From: Heliopora coerulea
Lineage: Eukaryota > Cnidaria > Anthozoa > Scleralcyonacea > Helioporidae
Assembly (NCBI GenBank): GCA_030142905.1
Contig: JASJOG010000550.1
Location: forward strand, 1-64,000
Direction of reading: 5' to 3'
Length of the DNA: 64,000 nt
Shown here: positions 31,297 through 62,378 of the stretch, piece after piece
Numbering within the stretch: position 1 is the stretch's first letter
How the letters are laid out: each line of letters begins with the position of its first letter
The notes under the pieces: model-generated
Databases searched by the model: none
Told to the model about the DNA's origin: nothing
What the model saw: only the letters and a program-made list of their open reading frames with translations
Position numbers and translations under genes: made by a program

Positions 31297-32907
31297 ATGG
31301 CTTCCGCCCAAGAAGGATACGATGACGAATGCTTTGAAAATCCTGTTCCTCAGAATCTCCATTGTGCCATTTGTTTGAATGTGCTGAAGCAGCCAATGCA
31401 GTGCTTAAAAAATGAACATTCGTTTTGCAAGCCTTGCATCAATCGCCATTTACAAGTAACCCAGAAATGTCCAGTTTGTATTGAACCATTAACACAACAA
31501 ACATTGCGACCTTCGAGACTTGCCGCAGATCTCTTATCAGAGCTGAAGATAAGTTGCGACAATTCAAGTAGAGGATGTGGCGAGTTTGTGAAGTTGGAAG
31601 TTCTGGAAGTTCACGTTGGAAATTGTGAGTTTAGTCCAGTACGATGTTCAAATGAGGGTTGTGAGTTGATCGTGAACAGAAAAGATCAATTAGACCACGA
31701 AATGAATGAGTGTGACTTTCGTTTGGCGGATTGTCGGTTATGTGGAGAGCGGGTAAGTTATTGGGAAAGAAAATTTCACTGTTACGTGAAGAGGGAGGAA
31801 ATGGACGAAATGAAAAGAAGTTTGAAAGAAACCAAAGATGAAATGTCAAGCATGGGGGAGATGATGACGAATATGAGCAGACAGTTGACGAGGAAGATGG
31901 ATGATGTGATGAAACAGATGGGTGACTTGAAGTGCCAGGTTACTGCAGGCAAAAGTGATTTTCCTAGTACGAAAAAAAAGCTGGAAAATGAACACCGTTT
32001 TCCTGGATTAACTGCCTCTTGTTTGCTAGCTAATGTTAGTGTTAGGGAAAATATTATCATTGCTGGAGGGTTTGGTAAGAACTCAGTTGAAATGTTCAGC
32101 TGGACAACAAGACAGTGGACTCACCTCCCACCAATGACGTCAAAACGTTACTGTTCATCGTCGTTTGTCCATGAAGATCAAATGTTTGTTTGTGGAGGAA
32201 GGTGGAGTGATGACAGTATTGAGGTATTGAACTTGAAGGAACAAGGTGCACAATGGAAGAAATTTACTGCCAAGTTACCACAGAAGACCTACGGACATAC
32301 CACTGTGGGTTATGAAAATAATTTATTTATTTTTGGAGGTAAAAGTGGTGGTAAGATAGTTAATGATATCTATAAAGTAAGTTTGGTTCCTCCTTATTCT
32401 TCCCAGTTGGTTTGTCATATGGCAGAACCAAGAACATGGCATGGTGCACAATGTTTTGGTGACAAGGTTGTCATTGTTGGAGGAACAACAACAGGTGGTT
32501 CAAGACATTCTCTTGACACAGTGTTATTATATGATATTACTAACAACTGTTGTCAAACTCTGGCTCCATTGCCTTTTGCTGTCTGTAAGATGGCAACTGT
32601 TGGCTGGAAAGACAACATTATCATTATTGGAGGATGTGACAAGAACAATAAAAAATTAAACACTGTTGTAGTTTATAATATAACAAATGGACAGAGTACA
32701 ATGTTACCATCAATGAAACATAAGAGATCAGACTGTAGTGCAGTGATCACAGGAAATGTTATTGTGGTCATGGGAGGATGGGGTGAGAGAGGAGAACATC
32801 TTAATTCTGTGGAATGTTTTAACATTCATACTTCTACCTGGGAAGAACTTCCCACAATGAAAGAGAACAGATGGTGTGCAACTGCAGTTGTGAAAAGTAT
32901 TAGTTGA
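31297..32907 (+). CDS. RING/TRAF-zinc-finger/kelch E3 ligase, copy B (complete)
   Basis: A single-exon frame of 536 residues. RING finger at about 23-61 (CAIC, HSFCKPC, CPVC); TRAF-type zinc fingers at about 87-162 (CDNSSRGC, CSNEGC, CRLC with spaced His); coiled coil about 165-212; six kelch blades from about 240 to the end, with Gly-Gly at 257, 300, 347, 395, 445 and 493. The likely role is a cytosolic ubiquitin ligase whose propeller selects the substrate; partner unknown. The start MASAQEG is shared with copy C. Differences from the other copies cluster at loop residues, e.g. 259-261, 283-286, 302-305, 349-355, 380-382, 400-404, 430-431, 447, 453, 472-479, 495-501 and 525-527. Lack of introns suggests a retro-copied ancestor or ancient intron loss. 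Confidence 0.93.
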   Translation: MASAQEGYDDECFENPVPQNLHCAICLNVLKQPMQCLKNEHSFCKPCINRHLQVTQKCPVCIEPLTQQTLRPSRLAADLLSELKISCDNSSRGCGEFVKLEVLEVHVGNCEFSPVRCSNEGCELIVNRKDQLDHEMNECDFRLADCRLCGERVSYWERKFHCYVKREEMDEMKRSLKETKDEMSSMGEMMTNMSRQLTRKMDDVMKQMGDLKCQVTAGKSDFPSTKKKLENEHRFPGLTASCLLANVSVRENIIIAGGFGKNSVEMFSWTTRQWTHLPPMTSKRYCSSSFVHEDQMFVCGGRWSDDSIEVLNLKEQGAQWKKFTAKLPQKTYGHTTVGYENNLFIFGGKSGGKIVNDIYKVSLVPPYSSQLVCHMAEPRTWHGAQCFGDKVVIVGGTTTGGSRHSLDTVLLYDITNNCCQTLAPLPFAVCKMATVGWKDNIIIIGGCDKNNKKLNTVVVYNITNGQSTMLPSMKHKRSDCSAVITGNVIVVMGGWGERGEHLNSVECFNIHTSTWEELPTMKENRWCATAVVKSIS

Positions 32908-35900
32908 TAGGTTAAAACAATTGTTTTAGCACAGACTTTAGTGTGAAGTTTTATAAAATTAATTCATGGATATTGAGTGTAAAAGAACAATTTAATGTTG
33001 AATGGAAGTAAATGATTAGTTGTTAAAAAAAAGTTTGGAAAATTAAGAATATTAGGAGATTAAGACTGAGAGTTTGTACCTAACATAGAAAATGTGGAAA
33101 ATAAATAATGAAGAGAGAGTTAAATCATAAAAAAATATGTCAGATATCTTGGTAGACAATTTATGTAATGTTTTGTTTACTTAAACTGTGTGAGTCTAGC
33201 AGTAAATAATTTAAATCCAGTACAGTTGTTGTTATAAATATCTGTGTAATGTTCAACGTAGGTCTGTTCAATCACTGAAGTTGACAGCCGTGCCATAAGT
33301 TTTTACTACAGACCGACTAGTTTTGGCGGGAAAATTTCCGAGTTGATTTGAAGATAAACAAACGAGATTCTGGTACGTTTTACAGAAGACTTATAAAAAC
33401 AAACTTGGAGAAAAAAGTTGAATGTTCTCAACGATATTTTTAAGCAGAAAACTAGATGAATCGATGCCAAAAAACAACGAAGTAACAAGTAAAAACACGC
33501 AAGTAAACCTAAGCCGTTAACTCAAGAACACAAAGCTTGCTCAAAAGCGATAAAGAAAGGAACCAAAAGTCATATAATAAATTCCTTATTAATCTCGTTT
33601 GTTCGGTCTTTACGGGAAAGTATTTGTCCTCGTTTTTTTTTCTCACAGACGTCGCTTCGTCGGTCGGTCTGTTGTTGCCACTCATGTTGGTGGCATTTTT
33701 CTTTGATGTTTCTGCAAAGCTGTAATGAAGTTGTGAAACATTTAAAATAACACTTTTCAGAAGTATGAATGCATTTGTTGATGATATGTTAAGTTAACAG
33801 CTCAAAAACTCACAGTTCTATCATCTCAATTTCATCACCAATAATTATTAGGGGTGTGACACGCCGTGCTTGCGACGGCCCAGGACTTACATGAAAAAGG
33901 ACAATCTTTGACCTGATCTCCACTTGAAGGTTGTCACGTACTGTCGTTCATTCACTAGAGTCTTCAAAAGGTATAGTAAGATTTGTGAGAGAAAGTTAGC
34001 AGTAATTGTGCTCTTAACACTTTATTGAGTAAGACCAGATGAACAACCGTATCTGGCAACTTAAAAGCAAATACCGTAGAATCGCGAAAGTACCGAGCCC
34101 CGGTTACTTTCAGGTTTATCCGCCATTGGGAGATGTTACTATCGAAAGGCCGTTATTTTTGTGTAGTAAAGTACGTTAAAGTACCATGGGAATATTGTTG
34201 TTTACCCGGTTAATGGCTTTACGATTGTCTACCGCATTTGTCTTCTTCGATGCAACTTTGACAGTTTTTTTACTTTACTTTTGGTGGGTCGAGATTTGAA
34301 ACTTGATACTTTAGAGTTACTGAAGCGATGAGTGAAACAGCACTGTCAAGTGTTGAGTGTTATCATCATCTTCATCAGTCGTATTTGTTGTATGACGTGG
34401 AAACGCAGTATTTTCGAAAGGGACTAGGATGACAGTAATGCTTTTGTGACATTCTTCCAAATACAAGAACATTTTAAAAGTATTGACGTGATGCAAGAAA
34501 GCCTTCGTAAAACACACGCCTTGTGTACCTATTTTTAAAACTTTTACATGATTTTTTTTCCCTCTGTTGTTGACAGGTTGTTGAACCTCTTTCCAAGAGT
34601 CAAGTTGTCATGGTATTTTGGATCTACACTATTTAATTTATCACAGGGAGGTGCAACTAAGAGAAAGCAATTGAGGAATTACCCTCCCATAGGGGAAATC
34701 TGCCAAGAAAATGTTCTATATTCTTTCAAGAACATCAGAAAATGTATTTCTGGAGCATTTTAAAGCATCTTTGGATGAAAAAATTTTCTACTGAGCTTTC
34801 CATGACTTCCCATTTATGAGAACTCGTGAGTATGATTGAAGCAATGCTCTAGTTATACTGAGGTTTCATGAGCAGTTGAATATAAATAAATTGTGCTCCA
34901 GCTGGCAGCTAATGCTCATTCCAACACAGAGACCTTTTTTTTCTTCATTGATTTCGTATCATTCCATTGCATTTGTTTGCTCATTTGCCATTTTCTCCAT
35001 GCATCAGTTTATTTTCAAACTTTTTTATTTGTACTTTTTCTTTCATCCTTAATAGGTTGTTTCATTTTCCACATTCCTTTTTCTGTTCCATTAAGGTTTT
35101 GACCCAGATTTCAATAGAATGACCAAACAATCCTTCAATAAATCATTTATTCTTTACAATTTTCATCTTTAAACACAATAAAAAATTTAAATAGTCAACT
35201 TCTGTATCCTCACTTGCTGTGAAAACTATAACCTGAAGAGTTGCATGTGAGAAGGGTTCAGAAATCCCAAATTACTATAAATTTATTTTCTCATAATTCA
35301 TCCATATTCAGCCTCATCCTCTAAACTTAAGATTGAATAAGGTTTACATAGTTGTAATAACACCTTCTGCTTAGTCAGCTAATGTTCAAGCTCAGCAACA
35401 CTGTAAAGATCAAGGGTAAGATGCTAGGTGATCACATTTCATTTGAACTAAAGGCTGTTTTGGTAAACCACACCCAAAGAGGTTTCATATTGTAACTCTC
35501 TCACTCTTCCAGATAAATTGTCGAAGTCCAGAACCTTGTGCATGTTTTGATAGTGCTAATTCACCCAAAATAAAATACAGTACCTGAGAAACAAGTAGTA
35601 TGTACTGAAATGAAATATGTCAGTGATAAGGTACTTGTGTTATTGCTTTTGTCCTATCACCATCTTTGTCTTGTTCTCCAGAAAGATTCTTTCTCAAAAT
35701 AGCATTTTAAGCAACTTCACTTTCACTGACTCTTCTCCTTTGTTACATTTCTTGATTGATTTTCCTGCTTTAAAGATCACCTTGGTCACTGTCTTAACCT
35801 CTGTCTTTTCCAGGCAGGTGCTTATCTTTCAATCATTGAGAGAGGAAACTTGGGATGTTCTTATAACCACCAAGTAGTTGGCATGAAACATGCCCAGCAC

Positions 35901-36505
35901 TGTTCTGTAACAGTCTTCAAACAGTATGTTCAGGTTCAGCATCTGGTAAAAAGATCAATTGTTCATGAGTTGCCATTACTATATTTCACAAAGAGAAGCC
36001 GAATTTTTCTCTGCTTTATCCAATAAGCAAGTGCACTGTTTTACTGGTTTTAATTTGAGTAGTACAGTATCCTTTAATTGTAACACATTATTGTTCTTAC
36101 TAAGAATATTCTGCAAGGGGACATACCACTGTCACATTGGACACAACACACTGTTAGAAGAGACTTAAGAAGTTTTGCCATTTGTCTAAGTCAACATCAC
36201 TGGTTTGGCAAGAACTTAGGAGTTCAATATGAAAGGAAAAAGACAAGGAAATATTGTATAGTTAAAAATAAAACAACAAAGTTGTGACTAGTTGCTTTCT
36301 TTAACAAAAAAAAAATAAGAAATTAGGATTTCAAGTGAGTTGTACTGGGTATTTCATTTTTTTGTTTTTATGTTACTTAAAAGAGAAAACAATTGACATG
36401 AAGTGTTTATTCCAACTTTAAACAGGGTTCTCACATCCTTGCTGAGGAGACTACTGCATTTGCTAATTTATAAACATCCCCAAAGCTGATAAACCTTTCA
36501 TGACT
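32908..36505. other. Spacer between kelch copy B and the RNF43/ZNRF3-like gene
   Basis: This matches A 1302-5032 with scattered substitutions and a 132-base deletion near 34421 (A bases 2820-2951 missing). The kelch 3' untranslated region lies at the start. I see no gene in it. Confidence 0.6.
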
Positions 36506-44382
<7,877 letters not shown>

Positions 44383-44730
44383 TTATTGCAATACAGCAGA
44401 GACAAAGGAACCAGTGGTCTAGCAAATTAACGTCTGGATATTAACCGCAACGACTTCAGTTGTGAAATTAAAAATGATTTTTCTAGGCCGTGAGCGATGA
44501 TCAGCCAATACCAGACCTTTATGGTTTGTTGTTTTTGTACGCAATGACTCGCAATCACTTTCCGGAGTTCCACTTGAAATAAGGGCTGATAAAAATCAGT
44601 TAGAGGAACTAAGCCATTCAAACAACAAACCCGGTGTTAAGATATTGATTTATTATTGGGGTTTCAAGTTCAAATATATACAGGACTAAAGCTGGTTTCG
44701 CAGCGAGGTAAAATAATTCAGAGTGAAAGA

Positions 44731-45155
44731 ATGTCGTTTAGTGATGCTGGTAAGGTCTTGTCAAAAATACATTTTGGCTACAGGTGGCTCCAAGATGTCT
44801 AGTCACCATTATTTGAATGTTGTGGCATGGTACAATCAATATTTGTCAAGTGCCATCTTCTCTATATCATCATTGAACCCCAAAGACGTGACAGTTTTAA
44901 TGAAACTTTTTGAACTTGCTACACCTTTCACTGAAACTCAGGTTTGCATACGTATAACTACACTTTTTACAGAAAGATGATATAAAATACTGTTTTCTTT
45001 ATAAAGGCTTCCAGGGAACTCGCCACATGTTTTCACCACGTCCATATAATGAATCCAGCATGTTAAAAACTCTCGATAAAAAATCGGACACATGCACTTC
45101 AGTAGTCCAAGTCAAAGGGAACCTTCCGAAGTTCTGTTCATGGCAAGGACCTTAG
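44731..45155 (+). CDS. Unrecognised small three-exon gene, unit B (open)
   Basis: Exons 44731-44749, 44784-44941 and 45015-45155 join with GTAAGG/CAG and GTTTGC/CAG signals into 105 codons plus TAG. The protein begins MSFSDAGGSKMSSHHYLN, continues VVAWYNQYLSSAIFSISSL and PKDVTVLMKLFELATPFTET, and ends VKGNLPKFCSWQGP. I do not recognise it. It starts close to, and points away from, the RNF43/ZNRF3-like gene. A Cys-rich stretch after an acceptor at 45215 (KYCEKCEEVCHGW) could be a further exon of another isoform. The unit A copy carries a stop and a changed donor. Confidence 0.5.
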
Positions 45156-45655
45156 TTCACATAGGGTACTGTTTTCGTTTTCATGGAGTTGTTTTTTAAC
45201 CTAATTTTACACAGTATGAATTGGATAAATATTGTGAGAAATGCGAAGAAGTCTGCCATGGATGGTTAGGATTATGCACAGCTGGATAATTCGTAGTTTG
45301 TTATTCGGCCAAGGAAGCGATTGCTGTCACTTACAGAGAAAGGTGAAGACAGATAATTTAAGTAGAACTAAAGTACTTGTCAATAAGGGGAAAATTCGGA
45401 GCAATTCACGGAGTACTGAAGCACTACTTACTGTTCCCCGGAGTGGCAAATGCAAGCACCAAACATTAGTTTGCTCAAACAAACGAAGATCAAGTAAATC
45501 AACTTTGACTATCACAATCGCACGAGAACTCTCAGGCCACATATTTTTAATTTTCCATTATCAAGTGTTGGGGTGCAGGTAGCAAGCTTTCGATACTGCC
45601 ACGTACATATATGACAAATTAAGAGAATGATCTCTAAGTATTTCGCCATTGTTTA

Positions 45656-45893
45656 AAATTGTGAACGCATTGGGACGTGCTGGAAGTTCGAGATGGTGTG
45701 TTGTATCGTCGTTGGGAGAAGGAAAGTTGAACAGTCTCGAAACCATTGCTGGTTGTGCCTCGATCGTTGGTTAATGATGTGTTGACTTCGCTTCGCGATG
45801 GTCCAACAGCAGGTCATTTGCGGATAACCAAAACTCTGCAGAAGGTACGTGAGCGATTTTATTCGCCTGATCACAGAGTAAATAACGTCCGAC
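45656..45893 (+). pseudogene. Gypsy integrase N-terminal piece, unit B
   Basis: The counterpart of A 13418-13655. The frame is interrupted at about 45720 by a change in the GGGAGAACGAAAG stretch (an A lost and GGAAAG to GGAAAGTTG), so only parts stay open. Confidence 0.65.
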
Positions 45894-46078
45894 GACCATA
45901 ATAAACTTGTTATGATTCGCGGTTTCCGAGAGCGCTACTAGAATGTCAATGGCAACTCCCTCCATTGGATAGCTAGAGGGGCAACTAACCAACGGGGCTC
46001 GAGTTTCGTTCGTCGCGCCCTCACCACTCGCACACTTCTCGCATTTCCTCAACCAGTCCTGCACGTCCTGCCTTTGGC
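45894..46078 (-). pseudogene. Inverted gypsy integrase piece, unit B
   Basis: On the minus strand DVQDWLRKCEKCASGEG, LVSCPSSYPMEGVAIDIL and NHNKFIMVVGRY are continuous, showing the Cys pair and the first Asp of the DDE core in one frame. The orientation is opposite to the flanking integrase pieces, as in unit A. The inversion therefore predates the unit duplication. Confidence 0.75.
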
Positions 46079-46092
46079 CAGGACAAAGAGTA

Positions 46093-46974: not shown

Positions 46975-49900
46975 CTATTTTTTTTTACTTACAGTAGATA
47001 ATTCTCGATTTCCAAACTTCAATGCATAATATCTTCTCATTCTTACAAACAATTTTAAAACATAAGTCTTTGGAAATCCTGAACAATGAGGCTCTGAAAA
47101 TTTATCAAGTTTTTCCAGAAGATATTTGCCAATTACCACCTGAGTCATGGCATTTGGAAATTCATCCATGAAAGTATTTTCTAGTCTAGTAATATAATTG
47201 ACAAAATTGGTTACTGGGACCAGTAATCCACCAAACAATTTGTGTGTTGACTCGTATCCCTTAAAATAACAAAATAATTTGGAGCTGTTGTCCAGTTCTG
47301 AACTAACAAGATACTTATGGCAATCTTGACATTTATGCTTTTCAAAACATTTTTTGAGAAGGTAACCAGCTACATATGTTATAGCATTAAGGCTAAATAG
47401 ATCATTTTCAAACAAGTTCAATTTATAGTTGGAATCCTCAGTGTTGAAGGGTTGAGGACCTTTTTCTGATGCCTGTGAATTTATATTATACTTTGAACCA
47501 ACCAGAACAGAGTCCAAATCTTCTGTGCAGTTTCCAGTGGATTGAACTAAGATGTTATGGTAAAATAGCTTCCTGAATGCACTACAGAACTGCATAGGAG
47601 TTTGGTTGTTGGCATTACCCCCTTGCTGTTGTATCGATCCACAAAAGTTCTCCAGTTGGTCCTGATTAAGTCGGCGTGTGAAAAGAAATTTGACTGAATA
47701 TAGGGCTTGAAGATGTTTCCATAATGCCAAAGTTCCATTCAAAGTTAATTTTAACCCTTTTAAGTGTTTCAAAATGTTGGTTATATCTTTGTTGGTAGTT
47801 GGATCAATGACTCTAAGTGACGAAATGAAGTCAACCATTTCAGTGAGAAATTTCTCATAAGGTGAGTCAGCTGACATTGGGGGACAGAAAATCTTTGAAT
47901 CTTTAAAAGATGAGCTGTTTAGACTGTCAAAAATCTGGTCAAATTTAGAGATCATTTCTGCTGTGCCAGATGCTGTTGTTGGTAGAGCACCAACACTAAC
48001 AGACATTGAGATTGCAGCTGCTACTGTGTGACTTAAAACCTGAGTGGCATATTTGACTTTCATTTTTTTGAAACCATTTAGATGGATGTGGTTTTCAGTC
48101 AACTTAGGACAACAACAAATTGACAAAGCACGGCCTTTTTATAACTAGCTTCAATGTCTTTCCAACTAGCAACTTTGTCTCCATGATGGAAATTGTATTT
48201 CAAAAGGTTATTCCTTATTGCCTTTATTAAATGAGGTGGATCATAGAGATAAAAAATCTTGTTACCATTGTGCATAAACCAAGGCTTTAATGGGGTAATG
48301 TCAAGGTCTTTAAGTACTTTCTGGAAATTAGTGCCAAGGTCTGAAACAACTGCAATAACTTTTAAACTGATGCTGCTAATCTTAATGATTGTTTCTAGTA
48401 ACTTTTCTTTAATTTTTGTGCTGTTACAGGACTCATGGACCATATAATATCCAAGAGGCTGTTTCCAGTTCTCCAGTATTCCACGGGCCATAAATACCAA
48501 TGCAGATGTTGCTGTTGCACTATTTTTTACACCATCACCAAAATCTTCTAATCCAATAATTTCATCTTTGTATTCATCATAGGACAGGTTTGCCTTTATT
48601 GAAATCTCATCCATTGAGATTGTGCACAACCTACTGCTTTCACTCATTGTTCTTACCTTGCTATGGATAACATGCATGGCAGCATCTGAAAGACCAGGTG
48701 ATTTTGATAGTCCTGAAACCCACTTCAGCAAACTAGACTTTGAAGGTAAATAAAAAAACTTAGAAATCATTCTGTAAGCCTTTCCACTGATATGATAGAG
48801 AGACAGAGCAAAAGCTTTGTTGTGTGGATCATATCTGTGGCCTCTTGCTTTTTGAAGGTAGAGGTTAACTTGCATTTCAACAAATGTTGATATCCTATCA
48901 GGTAGCATATTTCGTAAGACAGACATGGCTGCTTCTTTGGTGAAATTTTTTGGGGGATTCTTTTTCTTCATGTTTAGAGCCTGTCTAATATGTATGAGTT
49001 GTTTTCTTTGTCTGTTAATAATAGCTCTTTGTCTCTGCTTTCTAGGAGTGTCATTTGACAATGTTTGGCTTGTTTGACAATCCATCTCAACTGGACAAAT
49101 TAGAAAAGTTTTAATTAATAGAGACTGAATCAATTTTACATTTGTTTAGTCCTCTTATATAAAAACCAATACCTGTGGAGCTTCTGGTCCATGTTTCTTA
49201 GTGACCTTGTCCAGATTTTCTTGGTGTCAATGGTAAAACAAACTCTAATATGAATTGAAAATAACAATGTTTAATGTACAGTATTGTTAAAATAACATTG
49301 ATTAATCTTTCCTAATTATATTGAATAATTTACTGCTACATAACAAATAGTGTAACTAATGTATACCTACATCAGCATTCTGTGGGGTAATAACATCTCT
49401 GGCTGCTATTGGTGGTATTTTTTGTGGATTTAATGATTTAACAGGCACTGATATTTGATAAGAAAAAATGTCTGTTAAATATTGATTTGCAAGAAATGGT
49501 AAAGACTATAATTTATGCAAAATCTTTAATTTGATATACCTTCTTTGTTAGAAATATCACCTTCACAATCAGGTTGCACAGGCACATGTATGGTTTGTTG
49601 TGGTATTTCCATAGTAGACTCTGGTAAAAGTTTTAAAATCCCTACAAGCATTACAGTGTATTTACAAAATTTATGACCATTCTATATTTAGTCATAATAT
49701 TTTTTTGTCATGACACTATAGTTTACAGATAGGCTTGGTAGTGGAGTAATTTTTAATTACATTACAGTACCTTCATCAGTGATACTGGAAATAGGCCTTT
49801 GATTACAAGGGATTGGTATTATTTGAGGTTGTGTCATGATCACAGATTCTGCCAATGATAATTTATAGACACTGTTATGTGACTTTAAATAAATCGTTTA

Positions 49901-50565
49901 TTTGCATTAAAGATTAACAACTACCTTCATTGTCTTCATGGTGGTCAAAAATTTGGTTGTTTGGTTTCCTTTTTGGTGGCTGAGTTGTTGCAGCAGCTGA
50001 TCCTGTCAACATAAAATATTTGATGTGGACTAAGTTTTCCAAAGATGATTGCCTGTAGCCTTGGAACTGAAAAGCCCATTTCTCATGTTTTCTGAAGAAT
50101 GCTACGTTACCGTCATACAAAGTTCGTCTTTCAATGAAGTTGGTTTGACAATCGGTCATTGTTTCAACTATGTGTAAAAATCAGGAGGAGAATAAAATGT
50201 TAAAACTACTTTCAAGTTGGTTAATCTACTGCCTGAATAAAGTTTTACTGACCGTCAGGGGGTGTATCCTCGTTGAACAATATGCGTTTCGCTCCCGCTG
50301 TTTGATTTGGTCGGCTGAAAAGAGTCGGCACGGCATCTTCTCGAAGTCTGTTTTTTAGGTAGTTTTGAAAACTGGCCTGATTAAAATGACTTCTACAAAC
50401 TCGGCAGTTGTTGTATAAATAATCAGCGTCCTCATCCAGTAAATCCTTTCGATTGCAATTAATAATCCATTGCTTTGACCTGCAGTATACAAAAAAGCTC
50501 AGTTTATGAAGCCTTCTTATCAAAAAAGGCAAACAAAGCGACACAAAAAAACTTAAGCTATTCAA
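46975..50565 (-). pseudogene. THAP/P-type DNA transposon, unit B, broken differently from A
   Basis: The pieces are as in unit A but better kept. At 48099-49133 there are 344 codons with the DNA-binding linker and catalytic region ([37 protein letters not shown]). At 46975-48126 there are 383 codons with the insertion and C-terminal domain (NAITYVAGYLLKKC). They are separated by one lost base near 48130. THAP-type exons lie at 50245-50490 (CRVCRSHFNQASFQ, REDAVPTLF); the second Cys-region residue G of unit A is R here. Several short linker exons end before GTAT donors. Neither unit encodes an intact transposase, and their lesions do not coincide. Confidence 0.85.
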
Positions 50566-50579
50566 TTAGTTATAAATTT

Positions 50580-51074
50580 AAGCACACGAATTAGCTCGAG
50601 AACACCTGAAGAAAGCGCAAAAACGGCAAAAACAATATCACGACACAAAAGGTACTGGCCAAGCTTTTGGTGTTGGGGATCGAGTTTGGTTGTTTAATTC
50701 CGCTACGAAGAAAGGTGAATCCAGCAAGTTACAGTCGCCGTGGGTAGGACCTTTCATAATTGTAGACAGAATTTCCGAGGTGAACTACAAGATCCATCCA
50801 GAGAACAATGCAGGGCGCAAGCACATTGTTCATTACAACCGACTTAAGCTCTGCAAAACTCAACCACAAAATGGCAACGGAAATCTTGACGCAGACGCGA
50901 AGACATACCGACCCGACTAGCCATGAGAACAGCGACGACAGAAGCTATGTACCAGACGACACTGATCTTCTGTATAGCGAGGATCTACCTGTTTTTCTCC
51001 AAGATGAACCTCACGCCGAGTGTGAGCAAGCTTTGACGGAGGATCAAGAACATGTTCCACCCATGAGGCAACGG
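50580..51074 (+). pseudogene. Gypsy integrase C-terminal piece, unit B, cut by deletion
   Basis: The same frame as A 19470-20026 (DRVWLFN, QSPWVGPFIIVDR, HYNRLKLC), but a small deletion near 50897 shifts the tail. At 51074/51075 the sequence jumps directly into the BEL element, so the gypsy end and LTR are missing. Confidence 0.8.
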
Positions 51075-54000
51075 GACAATTCAAAGGGATACAAATGTTG
51101 TATCGCCCTTTCCAGAATTCCTTTACCTGAACGCAATTTCGTGGCGCGTATTATTCCATCTCCTCCTTTAATAAGCTCCACGACAATTCCAATTTTCCAA
51201 TGATTGCGATTTCGTTGATCTCCTTGGATAACTACCACGTTTCCAACTGAAGGATGGCTTGTCTGTACCCCTCCAGCTCGTCTGTGTTGTTCTCGTAGAC
51301 TACGGACATATTCCTTGGTCCATCGGTTCCACATCATGTCTTTACAATGGGAAAGGTATTTTGCTCGTCCTCTTAAATAAGTCTCCGGAATATGATGAGC
51401 GTTTAGTTCGGGCAAGTCACTGGGATTCTGGCATAGCATCGCATTTAGTGTAAGTAGAGGAAGCTGTATGTCATCGTCCAAGTATTTGAGCGGTCGATTA
51501 TTTAGAGCAATTTCAACATCCAACACTACCTCCTGCACTTCTTTCCATCTCAAGATACCGTTGCCGATCACTTTGTTGAAGGTGTTCTTGAATACTCCAA
51601 TCAATCGTTCATATTGACCTCCCCACCACGGGGCCTTGCTGAGGTTAAAATACCACGTGATGGATTGTCGTGCCAAATAATCGTGAAACTTCTCATCCTT
51701 TTGTACTTGTTCAAGCCACTTAGCTGCGGCCTTGAAAGTTCCCCCGTTGTCAGAGTAGATAACTTCAGGTCTTCCACGTCTGGCGATGAAGCGCTTAAAG
51801 CTGGTAAGGAACTCGTCAGTTTCTAATGACTGTAGTAGGTCCAAGAAGACTCCTTTGGTCAAGCTACAAGCATATATAACCAGGTATGCTTTATCCTCAG
51901 TCTTAGCTCTCACTAGATACTTCATGGGTCCTGCAAAGTCAACGCCTATCACGTGATATGGCATGTCTCGTTGGGTACGTGCTACTGGTAAGTTGCCTGG
52001 AGGTGGTGACTTGAATGCTCGTATTTGAAATCGTTTACATCCCCAACAGCTTCTTCTGACTTTCTTTACTAATCGCCTTAGTCTGGGAACCCAGTATCGT
52101 TCTCGTACTCTCGCCATGGTTAGTGCTACTCCCCCATGCAAGGTAGCAAGATGGGCTTGGTGAACAAGCTTCTTGGTGTATTGATGATCATCAGGGAGGT
52201 ATGTAGGATATTCACCTTGGATGCGTCCTCTGCATTCTAAAATATTTTCTTTGTTTGGCTGTAAGTTTAGGCGTAGTCGGTCTTCCTTGAAGCCTTGATT
52301 TGCTTGGGCATCACGCTGAACCCTTTTTATCCACCACATCTTCTGACGTTCTACTTCAACTGACTTTAAAGGATCTGAATTTCGTTCATTGGCGTTCTGC
52401 AGTTATGAAAAAACCGTCGTATCCATGAACAAATTCGAAGGACTTTCCACAGCTCGTGCTTGTTCAACAACTCGTCGAATGTGTCGTTCCTAGGAAGAGC
52501 GACAGCCAACACCTCTTGCGTGGTCTTGGCTTCTGCATTACTCGCAGCACTGGGTTCAAGTGTTATATCTGGTGGCCACTGATCACGGTTTAACAACCAC
52601 TCTGGTCGGAATCGCCAATATTGGTTGTAGACCACACTCCCCTCCCCCACGGCTCCCCAGATCTGCCGGGTTTTCTCCTGTTGGTACGTGGTGCCATTGT
52701 ATTTGTGTATGTTGTTGGATCTTGTTTACTCGGTTCGTGACAAATTGTTTGTATTCCCCTTTTCCCTTTATCCAATATAATGCTACTGTGCTATCCAACC
52801 AGCGGTGAAGTTCTGCTGCAACGAACTGAACCAGAGACCGTTGTACGTTGACAATCAAGTTGGTTGCCATATGGGCAGCTACTAGTTCCAATCTTGGAAT
52901 CGTTAGTCCACGTTTAGTTAAGCGTGATTTGGCAGCTACTATATTCTGTGTGATTCCATCTGCTTGTTCGACTACGGCATAAACTGCAGTGTTCACTCCT
53001 TGGCTACTCGCGTCCCCAAAAGCGTTTAGTTTGATGTTCTTGATGGGTTGTCGATGCGGCACAACTGATCTTGGCATTGTGATCGACTCTGGTAGAGACT
53101 GGAACCAATTCTCCCAACGTGCTCGTAATGGATCGGGAAGCTCCGTATCCCATGAAAGTTTCTCCTCGTTGATGTCTCGAAATATCAGTTTGCCGATTAA
53201 ACTTACAGGTGAAGCTAAACCCAAGGGATCATAAACTTTGGCTAGACATGACAGGACTCCTCTCTTAGTTGACTCCGATTTCTCATGAGGGAAAACTACC
53301 TTTAAGGTGTCATTTGTTTTATTCCATGGCAACCCAAGCATCTTTGTTTCTGTCGACCTAGTTCCGAGTTGTTGTTTAGCGAAAGACAACTCCTCTTGTC
53401 CATCTGGCACATCCTTCTCCATTTCCAGCTCACTTACATTACTGTGCCACTTGTGTAGTTTAAAAGTAGCATTTTCAAAAATCTTCTTTGCGACCGATTT
53501 CTTGATCTGCGTTTCTTCAACAGTGGCTCCACCTGTGAGCAAATCGTCCACATACAGACTTCTTCGTATTTCCTCGACTATCTCGGGATGCTTCTCTTCC
53601 CATGATATGAGATGTTGGTTGATCACTCTACCCAACAAGAAAGGAGATGACGTTAAACCAAACAGGGCACGAGTGAATCGATAACAAGGGTGCACCGGAA
53701 CCAGTATTTCAGGTTCCGGCCGGAACCGGAACCAACCGGAAATGACCAAGAAATCCGGCCGGAAGTTCCGGCCGGAACCGGAACTGAGTTATTTAGGCCA
53801 TATATGGTAATATTTGATTTTGTCTGATGCCAGTACCTGACTGGTACTTCCCTGACTGGAATAAATTAAAAGATTGAGCAACGTAAACGTCTTCATAAAG
53901 TGTTCGTATATTAGTATACAAATACATGTATCCTTGTATAGTTTCTTCCTTACAATAATATGAAAGCTCTAAACAGTGCACATAGCATTACTTGTTTTTA

Positions 54001-56724
54001 AACCAATTTTCAAACTTTCTAATCGATAACTTCACTGGACACCATGTTGTATCATATTATTTATGTACTTTAGTTCACATTTTAATTATTTATCTTCTTA
54101 GAAACTAAGTAGAAATATGAAATGCGATCTGTTCAGTCTATTTGATGTTCTTTCTCTCTGAAAACGAGAGTTCCGGTTCCGGCCATGCTTTTTTCAACAG
54201 TTCCGGCCGGAACCGGATCTCTGAAAAATCGGGGTTCCGGCCGGAACTAACCGGCCGGAACCAAGATCCGGTGCACCCCTAATCGATAAGTCTCTACGTT
54301 GAACTGATGAGGGTGTTTCCAGTGAAAGCGTAATGCGTCACGTTCTTCTTCTCTTATTCGAATCTGTAAAAATGCTTTCTGTAGGTCTCCAGTAATCACG
54401 ACTGGGTGAAATCGTGCTCTCACAAGACTGTTCCATAAAAGATTCAATAGGAGTGGTCCAGGTTGAAGGCAGTCGTTGAGAGACGGTTGGTCTACTCGCT
54501 CTCTTGCGGAGGCATCATATACCACTCTTAGCTTGGTACTCTCTGCTTCATCTCTGATTATGGCTTTATGTGGAAGGTAAAATTCTTTGCCGGTTGCGAC
54601 TAGGGGCGCTGGTTCCACAATTCCTTGTTCGATCTGTTCTTGGATGACTTCGTCGTACTTCGCATAATTTCCGTCACGTTCTAACTTTCGAATAAGCTGT
54701 TGAAGTCTTCTTCGACTTCCGGTCTCGTTAGTAGGTAACTCTGGGTGATTGCTTTTCCAGGGAAGGCCAGTTTTATACCAACCATCCGGACTGCGTTCTA
54801 ATTGTTCCTTAAATTCTTGATAAACTGCTTGCTGGTCATCTTCTGGTGAATCAGTCAATCCAAGCACGTCCAAACTGCAAAGCTGCTCATAATCGTTGCT
54901 CGTTGATCGTGTAAGCAATAATGGGCTGGTGTCTACTTCTCGACCAGGGGAGATAATTGTCCATCCCAGGTGAGTCTTCTCTGCCACTGGCTCTCCTGGT
55001 GATCCCACTCTTGGTGCTGTTTTTGTTTTTATCGCTGCATACTCGCTGGCACCCAGTACAACGTGTATTGGTAGCTGTTGTTTGTCGTCGTAGTTATGAA
55101 CCTTTACCCCATCAAGATGTGAATGTTTCTTCAACAAGGTCTTAAAATGTGGATTCTCCACATACATCAACACCGGTTTATCTACCTTAGTTAAGCTGAT
55201 GTCCATCGTAAATTTGCCGTTTATTGACTTGATCTGAGCAGAGTAGTTTTCCACTTTCGTTGTAGATGAATCTAGCATCATTTCAATCCGTTTCGTCCTT
55301 ATTTCCGTCGGTCTTTTGTGAAGAGTGTCAATTAGCTGAGCGGAAGCGTAACAGCTCCCAGCACCGGTATCTAGCAGAGCTCTCGTTTTGATACCATCCA
55401 CTTCCACTAGCACGATCGGATATATCACTTCGCTCTCGTCAGGTAGATGTACTGATAATAAACCCTCGGCTTTAGGTTTGGATTCGCAAATCGAGGTATG
55501 GTGTCGTTCAGCACAGTTACGACACGTCGTCGTACTGCGACATTCAGCGGAACGATGTGATCCTCCTGTGCAATTGAAACATAATTTCTTTTGCGACAGT
55601 ATTTTCCTACGGTCTATCGGTGTTTTAACATTTGTACAAACTGATGGTTCATGGTCGTGCGAATCGCAGTAGACACAAGCGTGTGGTTTAGTGTGGTCTC
55701 TTTGCTGTGTGTTATAGATTTGACCCGCCCTTTGTCGCCTCCGGGTCTTGTCCTCGGTATTAAGACTATCCACGGGATTTCGTTGGGTCGAAAGTCTCAA
55801 CGCTTCAGAGAACTGCACGAAGTTCCACTTTTCCCAATTTACGTCGGTGCGAACCAGATCTACTCTAATTGAAGGAAGTTTATCGAGAACTAAAGCGACG
55901 GCCCCATCAACTTGGTTTAGTTTGTTGTGTGTTTGAAGTGATTGTACGTTGTATGTTAACTTCTCGCAAAAATCATGGATCTGCTTTGTGTCGGCCGTTG
56001 CAATACAAGGGAGATCTAATATTTCTCTAACGTAAGCTTTTACTATTTCACTTTCTTTGCCAAATTTCTCTTGAAGTATTGCCTTAGCACAATTGTATCC
56101 TTCCGGTGTATACGGCAACGCCTCCACCACTTTCTTGACTTTGTCACCTAACAGTTCTCTTAGACAAGTAAATTTGGTAACTGGAGCAACACTAGTTTCG
56201 TCAATAGTTTCCGAAAATTGACCCCAGAATCTGGGCCAATCCGCATAAGACTCATTATATTTCGTTATTACCAGCTTTGGTAATTTGGCTTGTAAATTGA
56301 GATCTTCACTTGTCGATTTTGGCGGGTTGACTGATTTCGCTTCAAGCTCTGCTTGTAGTTTCATTTTTGTTTCGTGTAGTTTCAATTCGAACTTTATCCG
56401 CTCCTCCCGCTCCTGGGTTTCACATTGTACTTTCTGGTTTTTCAACCACTCCTTCAGATATTGAACATTTTCGTCTACTTTGGCCATTTCTGTTTCTATA
56501 TTTGTATTCCAGATGTCAATCACTTCGGCTTCTTGTTTATCTGCTATTTTGCGAGCTTCAATCTCTCTTCGCAATTCATCAACTTCGGCTGTTATGATCT
56601 TTAAGGCTGCTTGGTGTCTTTCTATTGCTTCGGTCTGGTCAGTATCCAGGATTGATTTGGTTCTCTTCGCTGTAATCCTCAACTGAGTGAGTTTCGTAGA
56701 TAATTTAGTTTCGGCTTCGTCCAT
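51075..56724 (-). pseudogene. BEL/Pao gag-pol, unit B (split by a hAT element)
   Basis: The 825-codon frame 54247-56724 keeps the gag start (MDEAETKL), the CCHC knuckles, an intact protease site (LLDTGAGS) and the beginning of the reverse transcriptase. A 597-base hAT element then interrupts it at 53685-54281. The rest of reverse transcriptase with YVDDLLTG and RNase H follows (52583-53749), then frame breaks near 52640 and 52380 (small indels). A 431-codon frame (51044-52339) follows with the integrase zinc domain, the DDE core (VIGVDFAGP, YSDNGGTF, WWGGQYERL) and the C-terminal domain. Unit B carries fewer stop codons than A. Confidence 0.9.
53685..54281. mobile_element. Non-autonomous hAT element inside BEL pol, private to unit B
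   Basis: 597 bases with an 8-base target duplication ATCGATAA (53677-53684, 54282-54289). The ends are CAAGGGTGCACCGGA and, inverted, TAGGGGTGCACCGGA, typical of hAT. Near both ends lie clusters of GGTTCCGGCCGGAACC-type palindromes, GC-rich against an AT-rich middle. No transposase is encoded. Unit A has the empty site near 24860. Confidence 0.88.
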
Positions 56725-57002
56725 TGTTCGTCCAAGGTTTGCGCGTCACATCGATTAGATAGATTTTCTCAGTCTCACAAGAGATCCCGTCGGAGGTGCC
56801 ACGTGTTCCGGATTTCCTCGCCTCCAGAAGGGAAAGTATCCTGAACAATTCACTCAACTAGTTTACTTGATTTTTTTTTTGGCTTTATTTTCGCTTGTAG
56901 CTTTACAGACCACACCTTCGCAACTAGACTCACTCAGGTTCTCATATTTCAACAAATGTCAACTACCACACCCTCTGCCGTTTGACGTCAGAATCCCCGA
57001 CA

Positions 57003-59404
57003 TATGATCACTGATCCCAATATGTAACACTCCAGAAGTTAATAGTTTTTCTGGCCTATTTGTTGCCAAGATGTTAATTAAAGACTCAGAGCAATTTGTT
57101 ACTCTAGTAGGATCAGTGATCATTTGCCCAAGTTGATAGAAATTTAAAATTTCAATTAATCTGTTTGTATGAGTTTAACTGGCATATGATAATAAATCAC
57201 AATTTAAATCTCCAATGAGAATTATTTCTTTCTTTTTATTATCTAAATCATTTAGAAAACCTTCAAGGTTGTTCATAAATTTGGATCCAGAATTAGGGGC
57301 TCGGAAAATTGAGACAATTTGTACAGGTTTTGATTTTGGTTTTACAATTTCAATACATACAGCTTCAAGTTCATTCGACACCAAATGCATTTTGTTAACC
57401 ACATTAAACACATTTCTTACGTAAAAGGTGACAGCACCCCCATTTCTTGATCTGTCTTTCCTAAATAATTGATAGCCAGGAATATTCATCTCATCTTTAT
57501 CTATAGTATAGTCTAGTCTGGTTTTATTTATGCTAAATACGTCGACTGGATTAACAGTGATAAGAAATTTAACTTCATCAAATGTTTAGGCAAGGAGGCG
57601 ATATTAAGATGAGCAAGTTTAAATTCCCTTAAGTTATTCAGTGTGTTCACAGTCACCGAGTTACTATCTGAATGATTACTAGTGGACTCCCTGTCATGAT
57701 TTATAAACTGGGTGTTTATGCCTGTTGGTGAGGTGCCATGAATTAATTTGAACTCTTCCGTCAGATTGCTATTTATTCTCTACTAATCTTACCTTTAATG
57801 TCACTATTCACGTTATCACTAGAACTGAGTTCGCAGATAGTCTCATAAGAAACGTTCACTACCATATCTTCTTCAACTAATTCATTGTTGTTACATGGTG
57901 TACGTACTCGAGACATGTTCTTCAGCTCTTGGCTTGCTCTCGTTGTATATGTAGAGTTTGAAACGGGGCATGGTTCGTACGTCTCTTGAAGAAAAAAATT
58001 TTGCTCGCCACCATAAGGATGGTGCGTGTTAGTACATTGACGTATTGATCTGAGATAGGAACAAAAATTTTTACCAAGGGCTTTGTCTCTAGTTCTGTTC
58101 AGGTGTAGTTTGGACCCATTCAAGTCTGAGCCATGAATATTGTTGTTATCGATGTAATGAACATTCAGTTTTCTACACAATTCTTCAGTGAGATCATTAT
58201 AAAGGGAAATTCTTCCCTCGGGTACTCTACCATCTTCTCTCTGAATGACACCAGAGATGGCAATCGTATTTATGTAATGCTGTGCGTCTTGAATGAATCC
58301 TTTTAATGTTTTATAGACGGTTACAGCAGCATCTTTTGCTTGGTCATTCGTACCAACGTGTGTCACCATCGCGCTGTATCCTTGACAATTGGATCCGTCT
58401 TTAATCTTATTTTGTATCTCTTTCAAGGTTGCTCCACTATAAACTTGACCAGTTGCTTTCCTGCGAAATGCTCTTTCAATTTTCGTATGTTGGATATGTT
58501 TAAACATCGAGTCGCCGACCAGTACAACTCTTATTTCCTTAGTAGTTGGTTGCTCACGCTGTCGAGACAGCTCGATATTTCATTTCTGGTTTGTTTTTGT
58601 ATTTTTTTTATGCTTAAGCTGATGTACTGCTCTATAGCTGGCGATCTGACTTTTGAACGTATATTGTGAGCTGGTGCATTTGTTATGTACTCCTTGGTCA
58701 AATGCTGGCCATACATGGGGTACTTCATCTTGTGGACATTCATAACGGTTTATATGAATAGGTATTTGATAATTTTGGGTTTCGTTGACTAATGACGTTC
58801 CCGAAGGACGTATTCCCTTTGGTTCAATCCAAAGTGCGTCAGCCCGCCTACACCTTTGTCGATGCTTTTCTCTACATTCATCTAAGAGATTTGCAACTGA
58901 GTTTGGAACGGGTGTGTTAATACTAGGAATGAGGTTCCCCTAACGATGGAGTGACTTGGAGTTAATTCTTTCATTAATGGTGACATCTTTTGTAGAATTT
59001 CAGTTATCATATCGTCGATTCTTTTCCCTTTGGGTTTCCTTATCCTCAACATTTGAATGTTCAAATGATGATGAAACTAACACATGGCATACAGTTGATG
59101 AATTTCAAGGGATTCCTTCTTCATCTGGTCGATTTCTTGGCGTATTTTTTTATAATTATATTTAAGTACAGCAAGGTCGTTCTCAATATTCTGAATAGAA
59201 TTAGTGTTATGCCTAATCTCCCGCTCAGTAATAGTCACATCCAGTTTATCACCTTCCACATCGATCGATAGCTCATTACATTTGCACGAGCAAGAGAGAT
59301 TCTCGCTATGGTTCACGGCTTCAGTCAAGGCATGTTCACCTTCAAAGACACTTTGCCTTTCAAAGACACTTTATACAAGAGAAATCAGAGTAATTATCTT
59401 ATAA
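57003..59404 (-). pseudogene. CR1-like LINE: endonuclease and ORF1 with SGNH esterase, unit B
   Basis: Endonuclease start at 57175-57489. ORF1 esterase at 57773-58507 is open in this copy (GDS... start at about 58507, VTHVGTNDQAKDAAVTVYK, GSKLHLNRTRD). The coiled-coil N-terminus is at 59077-59328. A lost base in the T-run near 58600 breaks ORF1 upstream of the esterase. The catalytic reverse transcriptase is not in the window. Confidence 0.83.
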
Positions 59405-60761
59405 AATTGATTCTATTATATGAGAACCATATGACGTGACGCCACAACTGTGGCGGTCCTCATATTTCACAAGTGAATTATTACAAGATTATTATGTTAT
59501 GACGAGGTGGTAGCATAGTAAGGAATGAATTTATGGATTGGAATTTTCTCGATTGGATTTTTTAGATAGAATTATTTGATGGAATTTTTGTGAAACTGCA
59601 CGAACGCCATTTGGTTAAAAATTTCTTTCATGTAAATACTTGGTGAAACCTTCGAATTTTATCACATGGTGGTAACGACGCACTTTTTCATTTTAATGGT
59701 GAAAAAATTTGATTAATCCATTTTGTGGTGAGAAATTTTTGTAGTAGGAAAATTTCTATTTGCTGGTAAAAGTGTATTGTGGCAGTCATATTTCACGAGT
59801 GCCACAAGCAAATTATTATGACGAGCTGGTAGCATAGTAATTCATGAATTTATGGAGTGGATATAAGCGTGTGGTGAAAATGCGCTGGTACCGCCATATG
59901 GTAAAAATGCGCCTGTACCGCTATGTGCTATACTAATAATTTTTGAACTCTAACTTTTGGAATTTTTGCTTGGAATTTTTGGCAGATGGATTTTCAAGTG
60001 CGTTCTAAGGCTTGTATGCTATATGATGGGAAAATGCGCTGGTACCGCCATGTTCTTTACTAATTTAATGGGCTCAAGTACTGCAAAATATCTCAAGGGC
60101 AATGCCGCATGCCTTTAGCTAGCAGTGTAATAACTAAAAAACTGCCAGGAAATGTTGGGACCTTTGCCTATGTTGTGCCCACGTTACATTTGCTTTCTGG
60201 CTACTCCACTGATTAACTCACATGATTTTAGGGTTCGAGGCGCTTTGGCGTCATAACCAACCATCCTGCCTGTCAAGACGATGAAACATCTATTAAATAA
60301 ATCCTGGTGCCCCAATAAAATCACAAGGTCAATATAGAAATAAAAAAGTAGGCACCAATCAGTGATAATCGGCTAGGAAGTAGAAATGGTTGGCTGAAAC
60401 CCAAGACTGTTTCATCTAAGAGAACTTTTCAATTTTTTAAACAAAAATTGAAAACTCAGAAGTCTACTCAGTTAAGAAACGGCAGGAGTTCTATCACATG
60501 GTTTTGCACGTGACATGTACCAAAATTTCTAATTTGGGCGTTCACACTACAAAAGGTCAACGAAACTTGTCTTTGTTGTGGAGACTAGTTTAATGTTCGT
60601 AGATCAATCTCTTGCTATCTTTAATAGCGAAACGAACTATTACTCCAACAAGTTCTTGAGGATTCAAGTATAAAGTATTTTTGTGGTGGTTCGATATTGA
60701 GGACAGAAAGTGATTTGGCTGAAAGAAAATTGTGAGTTTACTGCGTCAATATTTAACAACG
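59405..60761. promoter_or_regulatory. Upstream region of kelch copy C
   Basis: Matches 29991-31296. An additional GGTACC-type repeat unit (59887-59930 region, TGCGCTGGTACCGCCATATG then a variant) is inserted compared with unit B, and the first GGTACC is changed to GGTAACG near 59671. No gene is visible. Confidence 0.4.
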
Positions 60762-62378
60762 ATGGCTTCCGCCCAAGAAGGATACGATGACGAACGCTTT
60801 GAAAATCCTGTTCCTCAGAATCTCCATTGTGCCATTTGTTTGAATGTGCTGAAGCAGCCAATGCAGTGCTTAAAAAATGAACATTCCTTTTGCAAGCCTT
60901 GCATCAATCGCCATTTACAAGTAACCCAGAAATGTCCAGTTTGTATTGAACCATTAACACAACAAACATTGCGACCTTCGAGACTTGCCGCAGATCTCTT
61001 ATCAGAGCTGAAGATAAGTTGTGACAATTCAAGTAGAGGATGTGGCGAGTTTGTGAAGTTGGAAGTTCTGGAAGTTCACGTTGGAAATTGTGAGTTTAGT
61101 CCAGTACAATGTTCAAATGAGGGTTGTGAGTTAATCGTGAACAGAAAAGATCAACTAGACCACGAAATGAATGAGTGTGACTTTCGTTTGGCGGAATGTC
61201 GGGTATGTGGAGAGCGCGTAAGTTATTGGGAAAGAAAATTTCACTGTTACGTGAAGAGGGAGAAAATAGACGAAATGAAAAGAAGTTTGAAAGAAACCAA
61301 AGATGAAATGTCAAGCATGAAGGAGATGATGACGAATATGAGCAGACAGTTGACGAGGAAGATGGATGATATGATGAAACAGATGGGTGACTTGAAGTGC
61401 CAGGTTATTGCAGGCAAAAGTGATTTTCCTAGTACGAAAAAAAAGCTCGAAAATGAAGACCGTTTTCCTGGATTAACTGCCTCTTGTTTTCTAGCTAATG
61501 TTAGTGTTAGGAAAAATATTATCATTGCTGGAGGGTATAATCAGAAGTCAGTTGAAATGTTCAGCTGGACAACAAGACAGTGGACTCACCTCCCACCAAT
61601 GACGTCAGAACGTGTCTGTTCATCGTCGTTTGTCCATGAAGATCAAATGTTTGTTTGTGGAGGAATGTTGTGGGGTGAGGAGGACAGTATTGAGGTATTG
61701 AACTTGAAGGAACAAGGTGCACAATGGAAGAACTTTACTGCCAGGTTACCACAGAAGACCTACAGACATACCACTGTGGTTTATGGAAATAATTTATTTA
61801 TTTTTGGAGGTCACAGTGATGGTAAGGTAGTTAATGATATCTATAAAGTAAGTTTGGTTCCTCCTTATTCTTCCCAGTTGGTTTGTCATTTGCCAGAACC
61901 AAGAACAGACCATGGTGCACAATGTTTTGGTGACAAGGTTGTCATTGTTGGAGGAACAACAACAGATAATTCAAGTGATCGTCTTGACACAGTGTTATTA
62001 TATGATATTACTAACAACTGTTGTCAAACTCTGGCTCCATTGCCTTTTGCTGTCTGTAGCATGGCAACTGTTGCCTGGAAAGACAACATTATCATTATTG
62101 GAGGATGTGACAAGAACAATAAAATGTTAAACACTGTTGTAGTTTATAATATAACAAATGGAAAGAGTACAATGTTACCAGCAATGAAACATGAGAGAGA
62201 AGGCTGTAGTGCAGTGATCACAGGAAATGTTATTGTGGTCATGGGAGGGGAAGGTGAGAGAGGAGAAGATCTTAATTCTGTGGAATGTTTTAACATTCAT
62301 ACTTCTACCTGGGAAGAACTTCCCACAATGAAAGAGAAAAGATTTTATGCAACTGCAGTTGTGAAAAGTATTAGTTGA
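60762..62378 (+). CDS. RING/TRAF-zinc-finger/kelch E3 ligase, copy C (complete)
   Basis: A single exon of 538 residues. The frame extends upstream to an ATG at 60732, but MASAQEG at 60762 is chosen because copy B begins there and the extra ten residues are not shared. Domains are as in copy B: RING (CAIC...CPVC), TRAF-type zinc fingers, coiled coil, six kelch blades. RING and zinc-finger residues are all kept. The first 250 residues differ from copy B at about a dozen places, while the propeller differs at roughly three dozen, concentrated after each GG (IAGGYNQK, CGGMLWGEED, FGGHSDGK, GGEGERGED) and around the blade Arg (SERVCSSS, EPRTDHG, HEREGCS, EKRFYAT). Blade 2 is two residues longer than in copy B. 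Confidence 0.93.
   Translation: MASAQEGYDDERFENPVPQNLHCAICLNVLKQPMQCLKNEHSFCKPCINRHLQVTQKCPVCIEPLTQQTLRPSRLAADLLSELKISCDNSSRGCGEFVKLEVLEVHVGNCEFSPVQCSNEGCELIVNRKDQLDHEMNECDFRLAECRVCGERVSYWERKFHCYVKREKIDEMKRSLKETKDEMSSMKEMMTNMSRQLTRKMDDMMKQMGDLKCQVIAGKSDFPSTKKKLENEDRFPGLTASCFLANVSVRKNIIIAGGYNQKSVEMFSWTTRQWTHLPPMTSERVCSSSFVHEDQMFVCGGMLWGEEDSIEVLNLKEQGAQWKNFTARLPQKTYRHTTVVYGNNLFIFGGHSDGKVVNDIYKVSLVPPYSSQLVCHLPEPRTDHGAQCFGDKVVIVGGTTTDNSSDRLDTVLLYDITNNCCQTLAPLPFAVCSMATVAWKDNIIIIGGCDKNNKMLNTVVVYNITNGKSTMLPAMKHEREGCSAVITGNVIVVMGGEGERGEDLNSVECFNIHTSTWEELPTMKEKRFYATAVVKSIS

Follow-up and report, generated by a model that had tools for sequence, protein, structure and literature searches.

The first 64,000 nucleotides of contig JASJOG010000550.1 in the Heliopora coerulea assembly GCA_030142905.1 (the window; the whole contig is 117,573 bases) include three copies of a gene for a RING finger protein with a kelch propeller. 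They belong to an expanded RING-kelch family with selection-driven hypervariability on one face of the propeller, and with the propeller itself shared by recombination. The reading favored here, with a probability of roughly 0.7, is that the genes form a large and mostly clustered family and encode probable ubiquitin ligases with RING, TRAF-type zinc finger, and kelch domains, in which the propeller serves as a diversified module for recognition, shaped by selection and exchange. A predicted binding face that changes fast, on a scaffold exchanged between copies, is what a germline-encoded repertoire of recognition proteins would be expected to show. A sequence-only reading of the window had proposed such a diversified family, made either by selection with gene conversion or by a targeted process; the first of these fits the results and the second does not.

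Window Copies and Hypervariable Codons

Copy B (L001; 31297–32907, forward strand) is an open frame of 536 amino acids in which translation, Pfam, and a structure model show a RING finger, a TRAF-type zinc finger, a helical linker, and a six-blade kelch propeller. Copy C (L003; 60762–62378, forward) is a complete frame of 538 amino acids by translation and Pfam. Copy A (L013), first placed at 1–1301, occupies 3–1301 (forward) and by translation is the 3′ part of a RING-kelch gene, codons 107–536, truncated by the contig start. A fourth copy sits past the window end. The residue strings originally quoted for the three copies are all present in their translations.

The copies lie within tandem units that are 95.2–98.3% identical over aligned blocks at least 400 bases long, yet whole codons differ at matching sites, as the sequence-only reading had noted. 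Hypervariable (HV) columns were defined by an entropy of at least 1.3 bits in 26 genes of the subfamilies designated I and II below; there are 29 among the 272 propeller columns (residues 265–536). The window copies differ in amino acid at 24 (B–C), 21 (B–A), and 22 (C–A) of these 29 codons, with no synonymous difference in any pair, while at the remaining 243 propeller codons the nonsynonymous differences number 11, 16, and 13, respectively, and the synonymous ones 1, 1, and 2. When only subfamily II is used to define the HV columns, 23 of the 26 vary among the three copies vs. 24 of 246 others (Fisher p = 2e-17). For the propeller as a whole, nonsynonymous divergence (dN) between window copies is 0.075–0.081 and synonymous divergence (dS) 0.009–0.017; outside it, dN between copies B and C is down to 0.006 over the RING and 0.013 over the zinc fingers, which bears out the description of these domains as almost unchanged.

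Subfamily I alone yields 24 HV columns and subfamily II alone 26, with 22 in common (p = 3e-26). HV residues are enriched relative to the scaffold in Tyr (13.2 vs. 2.4%), Cys (7.9 vs. 3.2%), Gly (12.8 vs. 7.7%), and Trp (5.1 vs. 2.3%), and are likewise rich in Asp, Glu, and Arg.

A Large Family with Distinct Members

A search of the same genome, in which 81 of 284 candidates were scored, returned at least 97 matches, with no internal stop in 87 of these; some genes are counted as two matches. Sixty-one loci were retrieved: 39 fall into four subfamilies, 13 are distant copies included in one comparison, and nine were excluded as broken or having an unmatched end. The subfamilies are I (the window type, 10 members), II (17), III (5), and IV (7). 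Leaving out one locus (L029), their 38 genes have 38 distinct HV signatures, with a mean difference of 21 of 29 residues; the smallest difference is a single residue (L032/L034) and the next smallest 13.

It is very improbable that an assembly, haplotig, or pseudogene artefact produced these copies, which were to be discounted if they proved to be sequencing or assembly errors. L028 and L029, close to opposite ends of one contig (G000:C404), are identical in coding sequence and 3′ flank and 97.5% identical in 5′ flank, the result either of a very recent copying or of an assembly effect, and several arrays are on short contigs that could be haplotigs. The frames are mostly open, however, and HV differences are nearly all amino-acid-changing and fall in the same columns in genes of different contigs. 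The mobile-element open reading frames (ORFs) of the same units do not have the HV type of pattern: three pairs from the copies' tandem units have nonsynonymous to synonymous ratios (pN/pS) of 1.11, 0.65, and 0.30, so the divergence of the copies is not general sequencing noise.

One further locus has an additional fragment: L007:581–853 is a partial 5′ copy (codons 1–91, 97.8% identical) immediately upstream of a complete gene.

Selection or Targeted Mutation

Substitution counts and entropy were examined across the 26 aligned paralogues, much as recommended with the sequence-only reading, and change in the 29 columns is almost all nonsynonymous. Diversity at codon bases 1 and 2 is 0.44 and 0.457 in HV codons, vs. 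0.034 and 0.037 in the scaffold. By contrast, the share of pairs that differ at fourfold third bases is 3.8% for HV codons and 4.0% for the scaffold, and pairs with the same residue use different codons in 3.3 and 3.0% of cases. The ratio of second-base to fourfold divergence at HV columns is 17.2 (95% interval 10.9–29.5) for the pooled paralogues, and 17.1 (9.4–35.8) and 21.8 (13.8–46.2) when each subfamily is scored at columns defined on the other; scaffold values are 0.92–1.13. For 39 columns picked solely from the proteins of relatives, the ratio is 9.8 vs. 1.09. Third-base events in split codon boxes are nonsynonymous or synonymous in the proportion 19:3 at HV codons and 20:25 in the scaffold (p = 0.0014). 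The HV pattern is therefore one of diversifying selection rather than targeted mutation: synonymous third bases are spared at HV codons, and a mutator would not spare them.

Nonsynonymous single-base differences per opportunity at HV codons are 0.57, 0.54, and 0.32 for bases 1, 2, and 3; base 3 thus takes part too, which rules out mutation limited to a codon phase.

A targeted mutator (a diversity-generating retroelement, deaminase, or similar) writing the HV codons is rejected on balance and has very little chance of being correct. It would suit the near-saturation of bases 1 and 2 in many HV codons next to almost unchanged neighbors, and the fact that two gene pairs with flanks 99.2–99.3% identical already differ at 13 and 15 HV residues; in set II, the proportion of synonymous differences (pS) within one codon of HV columns is also raised, at 0.073 vs. 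0.042 elsewhere. In set I, however, the corresponding values are 0.053 and 0.054 (far scaffold), and both the scaffold-level fourfold sites and the concentration of third-base changes where they alter the residue argue against it. Eight HV columns have a third base invariant in all 26 genes beside variable first or second bases: A at 283, 354, 376, 472, and 478, G at 330, and T at 351 and 405. These speak against mutagenesis aimed at one base on either strand, and the five with third-position A against the adenine-directed variation of diversity-generating retroelements.

Exchange of the Propeller Among Subfamilies

Subfamilies I and II are well separated outside the propeller: pS between them reaches 0.53 for the RING, 0.55 for the zinc fingers, and 0.66 for the coil, as opposed to 0.096 for the propeller. 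In 30-codon windows from residue 271 onward, pS between the two is 0.022–0.099, the range found within subfamilies (whole-propeller values 0.065 for I and 0.055 for II); in comparisons with IV, the low stretch (0.04–0.15) stops at residue 480. Nucleotide homology follows the same outline. Copy B matches three subfamily II genes over the propeller at 84–91%, continuing to 840–920 bases beyond the stop codon, and one of these alignments spans the whole gene; the upstream flanks of copy B and the three genes have no nucleotide match. Homology to a subfamily IV gene (L046) covers bases 783–1571. Synonymous constraint as a cause of the low propeller pS is ruled out, since the 3′ flank is common as well and N-terminal pS is high.

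In N-terminal trees, I and IV are clades (support 100/100 and 100/99), but they are interleaved in trees of the propeller scaffold, where I requires eight changes (shuffled mean 8.2). N-terminal sites are in linkage disequilibrium (LD), with r2 of 0.48 within 30 bases in both I and II. For the propeller scaffold of I and II together, r2 is 0.060 below 30 bases and 0.032–0.049 beyond, with a chance level of 0.042; II alone gives 0.227 below 30 bases, from nine pairs. The HV columns are nearly independent: by mutual information, four of 406 column pairs exceed z = 3, the strongest being the adjacent pair 526/527. L002 and L004 have flanks 99.3% identical but differ at 15 HV residues, and their propeller scaffold differences exceed the flank level (17/795 vs. 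19/2987, p = 0.0006); L025 and L028 are identical from codon 457 to 1.5 kb into the 3′ flank, with 13 HV residues differing upstream of that codon. The propeller thus looks like a mosaic, with exchange within a shared pool of cassettes.

With this much exchange across subfamilies, and with many HV codons recurring in different ones, the HV variants could conceivably be an old balanced polymorphism, merely retained while conversion homogenized the remainder. Ancient variants should have diverged third bases of their own, however, and the pooled set has none, so that this explanation is unlikely; exchange would copy HV codons too, and some of them may have a certain age.

Several points weigh against diversification by selection and exchange as described. 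The raised pS next to HV codons in set II is one of them, and set II at columns defined on I has a fourfold divergence of 0.052 vs. 0.038. Selection was measured by counting rather than by a likelihood site model allowing for recombination, and by the Nei-Gojobori method pS is 0.148 and 0.158 at HV codons vs. 0.050 and 0.042 elsewhere in the propeller; this is attributed to averaging over multi-step paths, as direct counts have no such rise in the pooled set. Approximately unbiased (AU) tests fail to reject monophyly of I, II, and IV in the propeller (p = 0.163, 0.058, and 0.454), so that the case for homogenization is built on four other lines: synonymous distance, homology of the flanks, interleaving, and LD. 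The subfamily III pair L032/L034 differs at one of 29 HV residues despite clear neutral divergence; it is not diversifying, so diversification is not universal among pairs. Ten of the 29 HV columns are outside the 40 most variable in the octocoral-type group considered below. Finally, all copies come from one assembly, and some contigs may be alternative haplotypes.

The Predicted Ligand Face

The sequence-only reading had located the variation in loops that form the ligand face of KEAP1-type propellers, and was to be abandoned if variable codons were scattered evenly over blade cores and loops. All 29 HV residues are in the BC loops (15 of 56 residues) and DA loops (14 of 56) of the structure model, which make up one propeller face; none is among the 41 residues of the AB and CD loops (p = 5e-5), and none is in a strand.

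In copy B (all on the forward strand), the BC series begins with BC1, residues 257–262 (32065–32082), identified by column variability; its variable residues 259–262 are outside the 29-column set, which begins at 265. The rest were assigned by entropy and the structure model: BC2, residues 302–305 (HV 302, 304, 305; 32200–32211); BC3, 349–354 (HV 349, 351, 354; 32341–32358); BC4, 400–405 (HV 400, 401, 404, 405; 32494–32511); BC5, 447–453 (HV 447, 453; 32635–32655); and BC6, 495–501 (HV 495, 496, 501; 32779–32799). The DA loops are at residues 283–286 (HV 283, 285, 286; 32143–32154), 330–332 (HV 330, 332; 32284–32292), 376–381 (HV 376, 381; 32422–32439), 431 (a single HV residue; 32587–32589), 472–479 (HV 472, 476, 478, 479; 32710–32733), and, in the last, 526–527 (both HV; 32872–32877).

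For comparison with KEAP1, whose sequence letters were verified, columns 259–262 were added. Residues of the Nrf2 pocket were taken as listed in PMC10045749, with Gly423 kept though apparently misprinted. The alignment has 278 positions, 30 of them HV and 20 in the pocket, with an overlap of 13 (p = 8e-10). The other seventeen HV positions fall outside the pocket list, and five of the seven non-HV pocket residues adjoin an HV position.

Domain Architecture and Proposed Function

The RING finger of copy B (zf-C3HC4_2, residues 23–61; 31363–31479, forward) scores 33.9 bits in Pfam against a cut-off of 27. None of its Cys and His positions varies across 55 aligned relatives, and this includes C36 and H41, whose spacing is C-x4-H; C-x1-3-H is usual at this position. 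The TRAF-type zinc finger (residues 106–154; 31612–31758, forward) was also found by Pfam, at 27.7 bits in copy B and 26.7, slightly under the cut-off of 27, in copy C. Helices at residues 166–185 and 194–205, considered in comparison with the TRIM coiled coil, are in a low-confidence part of the structure model. The kelch propeller (residues 250–536; 32044–32904, forward; Pfam and structure model) has six blades, as in the KLHL (BTB-BACK-kelch) adaptors. A RING followed by a TRAF-type zinc finger is the layout of RNF151 / NRDP1-like proteins, names carried by Paramuricea relatives in database matches. The Pfam matches at E 0.001, 17 and 19 in number, include no B-box, although a RING is common to these proteins and TRIMs, and no BTB domain, a difference from KEAP1 and other KLHL proteins. 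KEAP1 is moreover a single gene with set degrons, whereas the coral family has a varied face.

These proteins are most simply predicted to be ubiquitin ligases. In the favored reading, copies increase by tandem duplication, while gene-conversion-like exchanges keep the propeller scaffold (and, in I and II, the 3′ flank) near-uniform across old subfamilies and reassort the variants. Diversifying selection meanwhile replaces amino acids at some 30 residues of the BC and DA loops, on the face with which KEAP1 binds degron peptides. Because the RING end is conserved, the copies would most likely have one ligase function in common and differ in the target to which it is directed. Active ligases that capture varied, probably non-self, peptides are suggested by the fold, by the conserved RING, and by the precedents discussed below, with a presumed role in defense or in some other dealing with non-self.

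Relatives in Other Species

In a comparison of 59 octocoral-type proteins, some of them from Paramuricea, the 40 columns that vary most (out of 272) include 19 HV columns (p = 1.5e-11). Eleven Paramuricea paralogues have a mean pairwise difference of 0.67 over HV columns, compared with 0.21 over the rest of the propeller, and three sets of 8, 6, and 4 Paramuricea proteins, each apparently from a single contig, agree with them; HV columns account for 18, 16, 13, and 10 of the 30 most variable in the eleven and these three sets, respectively. A search with one Paramuricea protein found 933 relatives, and the named relatives among database matches are octocorals.

In Heliopora itself, distant RING-kelch copies, often clustered and at about 41–53% identity, are found on contigs G000:C190, C77, C235, C412, C479, C667, and C752. 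The 13 compared share part of the variable columns, with 13 of their 40 most variable being HV columns (p = 3e-5).

A wider proposal, tentative and with somewhat less than even odds, is that these genes would constitute an anthozoan-wide germline repertoire of hundreds of intracellular ligases: one recombining kelch cassette, with some 30 freely assorting contact residues on a KEAP1-type pocket, set in older RING frameworks, and giving each copy (probably each colony) its own degraders against fast-changing non-self proteins. The diversification may instead be real but serve allorecognition, gamete interaction, symbiont tolerance, or restraint of a cell's own mobile elements, an alternative that is possible but less likely than not. 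That the same columns vary in relatives, Paramuricea among them, would be expected under any recognition conflict of long standing, and mobile elements are present within the tandem units; the data at hand fit such roles and defense alike.

Cnidarians are not known to have lymphocyte receptors, and for their recognition of fast-changing non-self this family is a candidate repertoire, defined by sequence, with presumed contact residues that can be read directly. It separates scaffold exchange from residue-level selection unusually cleanly.

Comparison with Known Systems

Titles and abstract openings of the literature matches listed for kelch or NRDP1 in corals or cnidarians, and for hypervariable kelch propellers generally, describe no cnidarian family of this kind, which agrees with the sequence-only reading but does not prove absence; the sole match listed for NRDP1 in corals is a row of a primer table. 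Related systems are known elsewhere. The finTRIMs of teleost fish, considered together with TRIM5alpha, are, like the coral genes, a large duplicated RING family in which positive selection falls mainly on loops of the recognition domain at the C-terminus, with congruent sites in distant relatives and a detected recombination point; 16–17 selected B30.2 sites are reported from site models (PMC2657112). They have B-boxes and B30.2 domains rather than TRAF-type zinc fingers and a kelch propeller, and the 29 coral columns were found by entropy and counting and are set in a propeller homogenized across old subfamilies. Nematode F-box adaptors are likewise expanded, with a positively selected substrate-binding domain and a ligase-linking domain under purifying selection (Thomas, 2006, as cited in PMC12062965); these are SCF adaptors with a different recognition domain, whereas the coral genes encode single-chain RING proteins. 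Expansion, a conserved RING end, and diversifying selection in the recognition domain, the marks of such diversified ligase families, are all found in the coral genes.

Two other precedents concern beta-propellers. The HNWD NLRs of fungi (het-d/het-e of Podospora) also combine a homogenized propeller scaffold with hypervariable, diversifying positions on a predicted interaction surface; there, WD40 repeats are homogenized inside one gene and attached to an NLR, while in the coral whole kelch propellers are homogenized between genes and attached to a RING (PMC12222747). Tachylectin-2 of the coral Oculina is a putatively immune beta-propeller with positive selection and high amino acid diversity, but is a five-bladed sugar-binding lectin with population alleles, whose sugar-binding residues are highly conserved (PMC2880987); in the six-bladed RING-kelch propeller, the ligand-face residues are the variable ones. 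The coral family would extend to RING-kelch proteins the rule by which beta-propellers, like ligase adaptors, evolve into diversified sensors.

Other Features of the Tandem Units

P-element-like transposase ORFs are at 16796–17794 and 46975–49133 (reverse strand), interrupted at differing places; by Pfam, the second has a TNP-like RNase H and a Tnp_P_element helix-turn-helix domain, and the first is within the matching block. Retroelement ORFs, presumably BEL/Pao-like, are at 22133–27257 and 51044–56724 (reverse), with DUF1759, Integrase_H2C2, and DUF5641 found by Pfam in the second unit; these served as the pN/pS control. Genes for tRNA-Thr (AGT) are at 7304–7377 and 38777–38850 (reverse), at equivalent sites of two units.

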